Shown here in pieces: positions 4,379 to 7,412 of a DNA stretch of 12,451 nucleotides. Each line of letters begins with the position of its first letter. Position 1 is the first letter of the stretch. The notes beneath the pieces are model-generated. The model was not told where the DNA came from and made no database searches. It saw only the letters and a program-made list of their open reading frames with translations. Both the position numbers and the translations under genes were made by a program. Origin of the DNA: an uncultured Aquabacterium sp. (lineage in GTDB: Bacteria; Pseudomonadota; Gammaproteobacteria; Burkholderiales; Burkholderiaceae_C); the NCBI GenBank assembly GCA_937923225.1, contig CALAKR010000457.1, positions 1-12,451 on the forward strand. The letters are read 5' to 3'.

Positions 4379-4966
4379 TCAGCGGCGGTCCATCAGCGCG
4401 TGGGCGATGGTGCCCAGGTCCACGTATTCCAGCTCACTGCCCACGGGCACGCCGCGGGCCAGGCGCGTGACGCGCACACCGCGCTGCCGCAGTTGCTCCG
4501 ACAGCACGTGGGCCGTCACCTCGCCCTCGGCGGTGAAGTTGGTGGCCAGCACCACCTCATCGACCACACCGTCGCTGGCGCGGTCCAGCAGGCGTGTCAC
4601 GCCGATGTCGTGCATGCCCACGCCGTCCAGCGGGCTCAGGGCACCGGCCAGCACGAAGTACAGACCACGGTAGCTGCCGCTGCGTTCCAGCGCGGCCTGG
4701 TCCGCCGGTGTCTCGACCACGCACAGCAGGCGCGCGTCTCGGGTCGGGTCCAGGCAGGTGGCACAGATGCGGTCGCGGCTGAAGGTGTGGCAGCGCTCGC
4801 AATGGCCGATCTCATCGACCGCCTGCAGCAGTGACTGCGCCAGGCGCACAGCGCCATTGCGGTCATGCTGCAGCAGATGGAAGGCCATGCGCTGCGCCGA
4901 TTTCTGCCCCACGCCCGGCAAGGCCCGCAAGGCCTCGATCAAGCGGTTGACGACGGGATCGGTCAC
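4379..4966 (-). CDS. recR: Recombination mediator RecR
   Basis: RecR (195 residues) forms a ring or clamp on DNA and, with RecF/RecO, loads RecA at single-strand gaps. Visible domains in order are an N-terminal helix-hairpin-helix ([19 protein letters not shown], about 10-32), a C4 zinc finger with Cys 56, 59, 68 and 71 (HCERCHTFS...[11 protein letters not shown]), and a Toprim domain (about 79-173) beginning [16 protein letters not shown]. The C-terminal segment holds the family sequence [25 protein letters not shown]. Translation starts at a GTG (4966-4964), preceded by AGAAGG about 8 bases upstream. It is the last gene of the dnaX-ybaB-recR unit, 19 bases after the ybaB stop. Confidence 0.98.
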
Positions 4967-4985: not shown

Positions 4986-5312
4986 TCAGAACGGGAACTT
5001 CATGCCCGGCGGCATGGGCATGCCGGCCGTCAGCTTGCCCATCTTCTCGGCGGAGGTGGCCTCGGCCTTGCGCACCGCGTCGTTGAAGGCGGCGGCCACC
5101 AGGTCTTCCAGCATGTCCTTGTCATCGGCCAGCAGGCTGGGGTCGATGGTGACGCGCTTGACATCGTTCTTGCAGGTCATGATGACCTTGACCAGGCCGG
5201 CACCGGACTGGCCTTCCACCTCGACCAGGGCCAGTTCGTCCTGGGCCTTCTTGAGGTTGTCCTGCATTTGCTGGGCTTGCTTCATCAAGCCGGCCAGTTG
5301 TCCTTTGAGCAT
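4986..5312 (-). CDS. ybaB: YbaB/EbfC family nucleoid-associated protein
   Basis: The 108-residue protein matches the small dimeric YbaB/EbfC family of DNA-binding proteins. It has an N-terminal amphipathic helix ([20 protein letters not shown]), the core strand sequence [28 protein letters not shown] (about 35-62), a second long helix with [15 protein letters not shown], and the characteristic Met/Pro/Gly-rich tail [11 protein letters not shown]. Members bind DNA as tweezer-like dimers and are almost always encoded between dnaX and recR, as here. The ATG at 5312-5310 has an AAAGGA ribosome-binding site about 10 bases upstream. It lies 57 bases downstream of dnaX and 19 bases upstream of recR. 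The precise cellular role is not settled for the family. Confidence 0.97.
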
Positions 5313-5369: not shown

Positions 5370-7412
5370 TCAAAGTGGGGCGATCGATCCGCCCACGATC
5401 CGGGCGCCGGGGTATTGCGACAGCAGCGCATTGACCAGCGGATCCTGCTGGATCAGTGTTTCGGCGGCGGCCTGGCGGCCTGCGCGCGCGGCCTGTTCGC
5501 GCAATGCGGGTGTGTCCTTGGCCACGCCTGCCTCCAGTTCGAGACGGGACTCGTCGCCCAGCACCTTGCGCACGGCGGCGGTCAGGCGTTCCCGTTGCGT
5601 GTCACTGCGCAGCGTTTCGCGCTCGACACGAAGCTTCCAGACCGAGGTGCCGCCTTCGTCCTGCACGCCCACGCATTCAGCCTGCATGGCCAATTCGCGC
5701 ACCAGGGCAGCCAGCAGGCCCTCCTGCTGCATGCGGGCCACCAGATCGGCCCAGCGGTCACCCAGGGGCGTCGTGGGCACGACCGGGACCACGGTGCGTT
5801 CCGGCACGAGCAAGGCGGCTGGCAGGGGCGCGTCAGGCTCAGAGGCTGGTCGCTGGGGCGTGGCCACCCGGGCGGGCCGCTCCTTGGGCAGGTCGAAAGA
5901 CACATCCTGCCCGTAGGACGGTTCGTCATCGACGAGCGGGATATCCTGATCCCAAGGGGGGACATCGTCTGCCGCAGAGGGGCGTGCAGAGGCAACCGGT
6001 TCACGACGCGGCTCAGCAGGCGGCACAGGGCGCGCAACCGGCGGTGGCGCGACGGGCGTCGGGGCTTGCTGCGCCACAGGGCGGGCCTGAGGCATTGCCG
6101 GGCGGGGCTGCGAAGCCACGGAAGGCTGTGCCTGTGATGCCGGCGCCGGTACGGGTGCAGGTGGAGGTGCTGGTAGCACCCTGCGTTCGGCCACCGCTTC
6201 GCCGGCCAAAGGCCTGGGTGCGGCCGCCGCGAGCGGTGCCGTAGCCTGCTCGGAGGGCCCGGCCGGCTTGACAGCCACCGGGCCTTCAGCTTTTGGGTGG
6301 TCGCGACTCCCGTCCTGGGCCGGCTTGAAGGCCAGCCAGCGCAACAGGATCATCTGCAGGCCGGCGTGTTCGTCCGGCGCCAGGGCCAGCTCTGCACGGC
6401 CATGCAGCGCCAGGCTGTAGAACAGCTGACATTCGTCCGGCGCGAGGCGGCGCGACAGCGCCAGCCAGGGGGCCTTGTCGGGATCGCTCTCGGCCAGCCC
6501 AGGCACGCTTTGCAGCACCGCGATGTTCTGCAGGGCCGAGGCCAGGTCATCCAGCGTGCCCTGGGCCGACAGCCCCAGGCGGCGCAGGTTGTCACCCGCC
6601 TCGATCAGGGCCGGGCCATCGCCATTGGCCACGGCTTCCAGGATGGCCAGCACATGCTGACGATCCACCGAGCCCAGCATCTGGCGCACCACGGCTTCGT
6701 CCAGTTGCCCGCCGCCATAGGCGATGGCCTGGTCGGTGAGCGACAAGCCATCGCGCATCGAGCCCCGGGCCGCACGCGCCAGCAGGCGCAAGGCGCCCGG
6801 CTCGAAGGGCACGTGCTCTTGCGACAACACCTGCTCAAGGTGCTCGTGCACGGTCTGCATGGCCATGGGCCGCAGGTTGAACTGCAGGCAGCGCGACAGC
6901 ACCGTCACCGGCACCTTCTGCGGATCGGTGGTGGCCAGCACGAACTTCAGGTAATCCGGCGGCTCCTCCAGCGTCTTGAGCATCGCGTTGAACGCGGTGT
7001 TCGAGAGCATGTGCACTTCATCGATCATGTAGACCTTGAAGCGCCCCACCACCGGCTTGTAGACCGCCTGGTCCAGCAACTGGGAGATCTCTTCGACGCC
7101 ACGGTTCGACGCAGCGTCCATCTCGACGTAATCGACGAAGCGCCCGGCATCGATGTCACGACAGGGCTGGCACTGACCGCAAGGCGTGGCCGTGATGCCG
7201 CCCTGGCCATCAGGCCCCGTGCAGTTGAGCGACTTGGCCAGGATGCGCGACACCGTGGTCTTGCCGACACCCCGGGTGCCGGTGAACAGGTAGGCGTGGT
7301 GCAGCCGCTGCTGCGTGAGCGCGTTGGCCAGCGCCTGGACCACATGGCCCTGGCCCACCATGGCCTCGAAACTGAGAGGGCGGTACTTGCGCGCCAGAAC
7401 CGTCGATGTCAT
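5370..7412 (-). CDS. dnaX: DNA polymerase III subunits tau and (by predicted frameshift) gamma
   Basis: The full-length product, tau (680 residues), is the AAA+ motor of the clamp loader that opens the beta sliding clamp and links polymerase cores to the helicase. Domain I carries Walker A GTRGVGKTT (K51), a zinc site with Cys 64, 78, 81 and 84, Walker B with D131-E132 (MIDEVHML) and sensor motif SRC at 173-175. Domains II-III run to about residue 372. A Pro/Ala-rich linker follows (about 375-540), then the tau-specific C-terminal domain (about 545-680) for helicase and polymerase contact. A slippery heptamer at codons 372-374 would yield a 375-residue gamma consisting of domains I-III only. 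The zinc loop has five more residues between the first and second Cys than in E. coli. The ATG at 7412 follows a TACAAT box by seven bases, suggesting a leaderless message. First gene of dnaX-ybaB-recR. Confidence 0.97.
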   Translation of the reverse strand: MTSTVLARKYRPLSFEAMVGQGHVVQALANALTQQRLHHAYLFTGTRGVGKTTVSRILAKSLNCTGPDGQGGITATPCGQCQPCRDIDAGRFVDYVEMDAASNRGVEEISQLLDQAVYKPVVGRFKVYMIDEVHMLSNTAFNAMLKTLEEPPDYLKFVLATTDPQKVPVTVLSRCLQFNLRPMAMQTVHEHLEQVLSQEHVPFEPGALRLLARAARGSMRDGLSLTDQAIAYGGGQLDEAVVRQMLGSVDRQHVLAILEAVANGDGPALIEAGDNLRRLGLSAQGTLDDLASALQNIAVLQSVPGLAESDPDKAPWLALSRRLAPDECQLFYSLALHGRAELALAPDEHAGLQMILLRWLAFKPAQDGSRDHPKAEGPVAVKPAGPSEQATAPLAAAAPRPLAGEAVAERRVLPAPPPAPVPAPASQAQPSVASQPRPAMPQARPVAQQAPTPVAPPPVARPVPPAEPRREPVASARPSAADDVPPWDQDIPLVDDEPSYGQDVSFDLPKERPARVATPQRPASEPDAPLPAALLVPERTVVPVVPTTPLGDRWADLVARMQQEGLLAALVRELAMQAECVGVQDEGGTSVWKLRVERETLRSDTQRERLTAAVRKVLGDESRLELEAGVAKDTPALREQAARAGRQAAAETLIQQDPLVNALLSQYPGARIVGGSIAPL
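6256..6311 (-). promoter_or_regulatory. Predicted programmed -1 ribosomal frameshift signal in dnaX
   Basis: Read on the minus strand, the parts in order are as follows. GGGAG (6311-6307) is a Shine-Dalgarno-like stimulator, then a 9-base spacer. The heptamer CCCAAAA (6297-6291) is in the phase C CCA AAA, with Pro373 and Lys374 in frame zero. A 6-base spacer follows. The hairpin has a 7-bp outer stem (6284-6278 with 6262-6256, GGCCCGG/CCGGGCC) and a 4-bp inner stem (6276-6273 with 6268-6265, GGCT/AGCC) around a GTCA loop. After slipping, the -1 frame reads AGC then TGA (6288-6286), ending a product of 375 residues. The same three-part arrangement drives gamma synthesis in E. coli dnaX, where the heptamer is A AAA AAG. 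Function here is inferred. Confidence 0.78.

Follow-up and report, generated by a model that had tools for sequence, protein, structure and literature searches.

Frameshifting in dnaX is textbook knowledge. In E. coli, a Shine-Dalgarno (SD)-like element, the slippery heptamer A_AAA_AAG and a stem-loop are arranged along the gene in this order, and translation terminates one codon after the slip, according to two reports (PMC5009743, PMC3711429); the short product is described in a third as retaining domains I-III (PMC3290774). The dnaX gene of Thermus thermophilus arrives at the same outcome, a gamma-like product, by slippage at a run of nine A (PMC1088944, PMC5009743). With respect to the slippery sequence itself, a study in E. 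coli ranks V_VV.A_AA.R among the most efficient classes of frameshift motifs, and C_CC.A_AA.R motifs combined with IS911 or IS3 stimulators were shift-prone there; these tests concerned constructs and insertion-element contexts, not dnaX, and the record holder, with 54% in the presence of the IS3 pseudoknot, was C_CC.A_AA.G and not C_CC.A_AA.A (PMC4066793). Most other bacteria keep no dnaX frameshift signatures and may not make gamma, according to one review (PMC3290774).

The window, i.e., the whole stretch of 12,451 nucleotides that was analysed, stems from an uncultured Aquabacterium sp. whose genome (G000) is represented by 505 contigs and 2.6 Mb and is 54% complete. Its minus strand carries dnaX (7412..5370) as an open reading frame of 680 residues, the length of tau, followed by a gene of the YbaB/EbfC family (4986..5312, minus strand) and recR (4379..4966, minus strand), both identified by Pfam and NCBIfam matches, so that the gene order is dnaX-ybaB-recR. 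The window DnaX matches TIGR02397 of NCBIfam, contains, according to Pfam, domain III (PF12169, residues 238-361) as well as tau domain V (PF12170, residues 549-667), and aligns with the E. coli gamma chain in 1jr3 over residues 2-365. Thus, the clamp-loader AAA, the lid, domain III and tau domain V that define DnaX gamma/tau were all found. The nearest relative among the 80 DnaX matches listed, which may omit records of the window's own genome, is that of Candidatus Aquabacterium excrementipullorum, with 94% identity in the best segment, residues 1-389.

Codons 372-374 of this gene, CAC CCA AAA, include the heptamer CCCAAAA (6297-6291) in the X XXY YYZ phase, i.e., as C_CCA_AAA. The SD-like sequence GGGAG (6307..6311, minus strand) is located 9 nt before the heptamer, and a predicted stimulatory hairpin (6256..6284, minus strand) starts 6 nt past it. 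The -1 frame reads CCC AAA AGC TGA, with the stop at 6288-6286, one codon past the heptamer. The AAA in the heptamer is the only one among the 16 lysine codons of the gene, the other 15 being AAG. A first-pass annotation of the sequence had already pointed out the phased heptamer, the upstream GGGAG, the two-part hairpin, the adjacent -1 stop, the solitary AAA codon and the frame-zero length of 680 residues, and each of these proved correct on inspection of the window; only the hairpin needs an adjustment, as its outer stem has the seven Watson-Crick pairs described but eight pairs when a G-U is counted, next to an inner part of 4 bp with a bulge. After a -1 shift, the predicted product (6286..7412, minus strand) would have 375 residues and end in Pro-Lys-Ser, in agreement with the same annotation, which had also placed the break at the end of domain III. 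Since residue 361 is the last one of domain III and domain V is matched only from residue 549 on, such a gamma-like product would retain domains I-III.

We consider it very probable, judging from the sequence and its relatives, that this arrangement is a programmed -1 ribosomal frameshift cassette, from which a predicted gamma-like clamp-loader subunit of 375 residues would be made beside the 680-residue tau. A share of dnaX translation would then end just after domain III. The tail of the 16S rRNA of the elongating ribosome would pair with the upstream GGGAG, and the ribosome would meet the hairpin while CCA is occupied by tRNA-Pro in the P site and AAA by tRNA-Lys UUU in the A site. Both tRNAs could re-pair one base back, onto CCC and AAA, after which one further codon, AGC, would be read before the TGA. 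Slipping itself, its efficiency and a product that would work like E. coli gamma are what we infer from these elements.

The search in the genus covered 42 genomes and yielded 41 dnaX genes; one genome (G034) gave no full dnaX match, and two weak matches with paralogues (L002, L003) were excluded from the counts. An in-phase CCCAAAA was present in 39 of the 41 genes, among them that of the cultured Aquabacterium sp. CECT 9606 (L025), and absent from two, L120 (G021) and L123 (G014). A FastTree tree was made of 184 DnaX sequences, including 25 of the 80 listed DnaX loci and 10 of 68 loci from a scan of the class, all of which were trimmed after domain III and, hence, lack the linker and the slip site. 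In this tree, the 39 heptamer-bearing genes form one clade with a local SH support of 98, to which L120 and L123 do not belong. Because the clade was found on a tree that does not contain the site, the presence of the heptamer in all 39 members is not merely the result of selecting genes by the heptamer. Loss of the heptamer among close relatives, named in the first-pass annotation as an outcome that would speak against frameshifting, is therefore not seen, as the heptamer is kept in 39/39 genes of the clade. On the tree made here, the C_CCA_AAA signal is of single origin; it is conserved and strongly selected.

The selection acts at the level of nucleotides. At the slip site, Pro is encoded by CCA and Lys by AAA in 39/39 genes, whilst elsewhere in those genes CCA accounts for 12.1% of the Pro codons and AAA for 22% of the Lys codons. 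Domains I-III of the 39 genes contain 205 columns with one invariant degenerate amino acid, of which 11 use a single codon, including 0/10 Pro columns and 1/8 Lys columns (AAG); the 39 genes are related by descent, and such counts do not represent independent draws. Synonymous variation, which the annotation had named as a second outcome that would speak against frameshifting, is thus suppressed at the site, and an in-phase slippery heptamer under nucleotide-level selection, as characteristic of -1 frameshifting, was found. The linker between domain III and the slip site varies in length and sequence in the dnaX genes of the genus, and the heptamer persists while the residues after it vary (PKAEG, PKSEG, PKALG, PKAPG). 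One might argue that the site is conserved only because a peptide Pro-Lys-Ala-Glu-Gly-Ser is needed, with the nucleotide pattern as a by-product, and PKAEGS and similar forms do recur within the otherwise variable linker. However, the codon choice is frozen here, unlike in the other columns of conserved Pro or Lys, the residues past Pro-Lys vary where the heptamer and the -1 stop stay, and the paired bases of the downstream stem covary. A constraint on the protein alone is, therefore, exceedingly improbable and considered ruled out by the covariation and the single-codon column test.

The stops in the shifted frames constitute the next part of the evidence for -1 frameshifting. With CCA counted as codon 0, the -1 frame is closed at codon 3 in 32 of the 39 genes, at codon 10 in five and at codon 13 in two. 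A near -1 stop is, thus, present in 39/39 genes; the conservation of the -1 stop, as anticipated in the first-pass annotation, holds in this general sense, whereas the exact place, one codon after the slip, is kept in 32/39 only, the remaining seven genes having their stop 8 or 11 codons on. In 32/39 genes the codon after AAA ends in T, and in 32 the next one begins with GA, which creates the TGA in the -1 frame. As a control, at 913 of 24215 in-frame positions (3.8%) of the same genes, the -1 frame is closed within the following two codons. In the +1 frame, the first stop is 9 to 262 codons off, within 12 codons in 5/39 genes and beyond 40 codons in 21. The regular occurrence of a near stop in the -1 frame and not in the +1 frame favors ribosomal -1 slipping.

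The downstream hairpin is kept as well. In 39/39 genes, the heptamer is followed at 6 or 7 nt by an uninterrupted stem of at least 7 bp, compared with 1909/23551 control positions (8.1%); this stem provides the downstream RNA structure typical of -1 frameshift sites. The mean folding z-score in 40-nt windows was -4.6 at offset +10, -4.1 at +12 and +13, and -3.0 at +14, whereas it ranged from -0.6 to +0.4 at offsets off the stem (39 sites). In an alignment of the 39 sites, 93.8% of the cells of a ten-pair stem were paired, against at most 46.7% for structures slid along the alignment, and RNAalifold independently recovered nine of the ten pairs. The covariation score of the stem was 0.331 versus 0.148 for shuffled alignments, and none of 500 shuffles scored as high; six pairs were changed on both sides, where the mean in shuffles was 3.7 and 7/500 were as high. 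The hairpin is, hence, kept through compensatory changes, which answers in the affirmative the question of its conservation raised in the first-pass annotation. As an in-phase heptamer is joined by a near -1 stop and an equally spaced stem in 39 of the 41 dnaX genes of the genus, the cassette exceeds what chance would produce.

A covariance model of the cassette matched dnaX in 39 of the 42 genus genomes. Second full-length matches (L349-L363) were obtained in 15/42, with a further partial match in G040 and G025. These second matches were rejected as frameshift sites, as they look like intrinsic terminators with a GC-rich stem and at least three T after it in 12 of the 13 that a sequence pattern captured (all but L353 and L362). 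They are preceded by CCCAAAAGCTCAAG or a similar sequence and, in several cases, followed by a TTGACA...TATAA-like promoter. The overlap in sequence style between the cassette and these terminator-like sequences could suggest that the dnaX hairpin is itself an RNA regulatory or (antisense) terminator-like element rather than a frameshift stimulator. In the sense direction, however, no T run follows the dnaX stem, in the antisense direction TTTT appears only after 6 nt, and a terminator would explain neither why the heptamer is in phase nor the presence of the -1 stop and the SD-like element, which makes this a most improbable alternative to stimulation of frameshifting.

When the model was run on 300 genomes of the order, with strict filters and 18 candidates scored per genome, by which weak cassettes may be missed, five genomes had a match at an E-value of 0.01 or better. 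In the window's own genome it was located in dnaX, whereas the other four had weak matches elsewhere than in this gene. The weak matches in other genomes of the order (L344-L348) show no similarity to dnaX and were discarded. One of them, L345 in G621, has C_CCA_AAA in phase around position 1501, followed by the same TGA in the -1 frame and, 6 nt on, by a perfect stem of 10 bp, within a long frame that we take to be CheA-like. Among 23 genomes of its genus, six gave any match with this cassette at an E-value of 0.5 or better, and the best one beyond G621 was a full-length match with an E-value of 0.03 (G645); the L345 cassette does not look conserved in its genus.

The SD-like element is the weakest of the four elements of the cassette. 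In the 24 nt before the heptamer, the best pairing with the anti-SD sequence had a mean of -8.8 kcal/mol over the 39 sites. The mean was weaker both for 2879 other windows (-4.2) and for 780 synonymous shuffles of this region (-6.6). AGGA, GGAG or GAGG was found within these 24 nt in 27/39 genes versus 477/2879 windows, and a distance of 5 to 14 nt separates the end of the best segment from the heptamer. Thus, an upstream SD-like stimulator, as present in many bacterial cases, is indicated by the overall enrichment in pairing energy; with respect to the conservation of GGGAG proposed in the first-pass annotation, the pairing is indeed enriched, but the core motif is absent in 12/39 C_CCA_AAA genes and the spacing is varied.

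The other route to a gamma-like product is transcriptional slippage at an A run, which gives mRNAs of altered length as in Thermus. This route is used by the same gene in Thermus (PMC1088944, PMC5009743), and runs of 8-10 A are present in 65 of the 108 dnaX relatives examined in the family. In the C_CCA_AAA clade, however, the longest A run after domain III has only four (36 genes) or five (3 genes) A, and near stops occur in the -1 frame in 39/39 genes and in the +1 frame in 5/39, unlike the stops in both frames in 56/65 relatives with an A run. Moreover, the covarying hairpin and the SD-like element would be idle under slippage, and the A-run sites lack a hairpin signal (mean z-score of -0.5). 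Slippage is, therefore, very unlikely at the C_CCA_AAA site, and we regard it as ruled out by run length, stop pattern and hairpin, in line with the first-pass annotation, which had doubted it on account of the four A. A single shifted frame with a near stop, together with the heptamer, the stem, the SD-like element and an A run of four or five, is the mark of ribosomal -1 slipping, and the clade-wide heptamer and stops, the frozen codons and the covarying stem all support the programmed -1 frameshift that the annotation had predicted.

The situation is different in other genera of the family, where dnaX loci were obtained from 108 of 160 genomes searched. The runs of 8-10 A in 65 of these genes, exactly nine in 63, are located within 60 codons after domain III, at 3-40 codons from it (among L127-L154 and L183-L262). 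In 56/65, the two frames that result from one A more and from one A less are both closed no farther than 12 codons from the run. The mean folding z-score of -0.5 downstream of the runs refers to 67 sequences, two of which come from outside the family, from the class scan. On the domains I-III tree, in which an A run of at least eight overrides the heptamer in the labels, so that L238 with both was counted among the nine-A genes, 64 of the A runs are found in one clade of 68 sequences, and a separate clade of 52 sequences has neither the A run nor the heptamer signal. The nine-A and C_CCA_AAA clades join in an open fork. By analogy, the nine-A runs look like candidates for transcriptional slippage of the Thermus type across a large clade.

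Neither signal was found in 41/108 family dnaX genes, and A_AAA_AAG with a near stop in 2/108. No other slip signals were seen by eye in 47 dnaX linkers with neither site (41 from the family and six from the class). The scan of the class, in which 140 genomes were searched and 68 dnaX loci were considered of 134 with a match, three of them incomplete (L162, L180, L267), revealed a run of at least eight A in 9/68 loci but, beyond domain III, no C_CCA_AAA accompanied by a near stop (0/68, the three incomplete ones included). L188 (G129), L258 (G068), L264 (G304) and L288 (G319) have A_AAA_AAG as in E. coli, and their -1 frame is closed 1-3 codons later. A stretch of nine A with CTGA directly behind it is present 67-184 codons after domain III in Oxalobacteraceae, for example in Collimonas antrihumi DSM 104040 (L061), and in some further records. 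Records of this type (L058, L059, L061-L064, L066, L069, L072, L073, L075, L077, L078, L081, L083) contain AAAAAAAAACTGA farther down the linker, which leads to a -1 stop one codon after A_AAA_AAA. Some genes combine features. L238 has, 7-12 codons after domain III, a nine-A run and then CCCAAAA in phase, the -1 stop being 3 codons away, a double signal that is possibly due to chance and possibly what would be seen in a transition. L203 has an A run and a CCCAAAA 76 codons after domain III, with a stop 5 codons on. In L130, the end of domain III bears a CCCAAAA whose -1 stop is 96 codons away; in L270, the heptamer is found 31 codons after domain III and its stop 59 codons away.

The choice of AAA in the heptamer may be related to the lysine tRNAs. 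Both tRNA-Lys CUU and tRNA-Lys UUU were matched, with exact patterns, in 19/19 sampled genomes with C_CCA_AAA, and ARAGORN detected tRNA-Lys CUU and UUU and tRNA-Pro TGG and CGG in G009. With a dedicated tRNA for AAG, an AAA codon in the A site would permit cognate re-pairing. The simple rule that users of A_AAA_AAG lack tRNA-Lys CUU found no support, as G129 and G304 match the CUU pattern and G068 and G319 match neither; nine genomes with an A run gave no exact match to tRNA-Lys CUU, and the exact pattern misses diverged genes. A review suggests that the possession of two lysine tRNAs may be the reason for which Thermus relies on slippage instead of frameshifting (PMC5009743). The Aquabacterium clade, which has both lysine tRNAs in the 19 genomes sampled and yet a cassette for frameshifting whose A-site codon is AAA, makes this suggestion testable.

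As to the role of the frameshift, it could serve to lower the output of tau or to destabilise the mRNA, with a short product that has no job. The 41/108 family members with neither signal show that a short product made in this way is not required in all. However, the break is located soon after domain III (Pfam end at residue 361), a point at which a functional clamp-loader subunit could stop, and the run of most A-run relatives falls into this same short segment past the domain; we therefore find a role confined to tau or mRNA levels unlikely, though less so than the alternatives discussed above, and prefer a working gamma-like subunit. Two clades of one family with distinct signals, a selected ribosomal one in the first and a slippage-like one in the second, argue that the short subunit matters to them. 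Perhaps some of the members with neither signal make it by proteolysis. The route to the short subunit may have been rewired within the family, with RNA polymerase slippage at nine A in one clade, a separate -1 cassette in the Aquabacterium clade and neither in a third; the ribosomal version would have been forced onto AAA because a separate tRNA-Lys reads AAG, which would bar A_AAA_AAG. We give this scenario an even chance.

How, then, does the window compare with the systems described? The E. coli gene is the closest, as it is the same gene with the same layout of SD-like element, heptamer and stem-loop, the same termination one codon after the slip and a short product with the same domains I-III. 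The likeness, as the first-pass annotation had put it, is one of layout with a different heptamer: C_CCA_AAA was encountered in one clade only among the genomes searched, and it is accompanied by both tRNA-Lys species in 19/19 sampled genomes. The Rfam model DnaX (RF00382) did not match the slip site of the window and stayed below its gathering cut-off in eight genomes, whilst 8/14 controls matched, E. coli among them, with one, not named, over the cut-off; the sole Rfam match at the site was a chance miRNA match on the other strand. No description of C_CCA_AAA in dnaX or of dnaX signals in these genera was found in the open-access literature searched. Compared with Thermus, the clade of the window has four or five A, no regular +1 stop, and a hairpin and SD-like element. 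The nine-A dnaX genes of other family genera have their run at nearly the same position after domain III as the window has its slip site, but differ from it by stops in both frames and the lack of a hairpin signal. C_CC.A_AA.A belongs to V_VV.A_AA.R, ranked among the most efficient classes in E. coli, which counts in favor of -1 slipping at the window site. Altogether, the C_CCA_AAA signal looks different from the known dnaX version and of separate origin.
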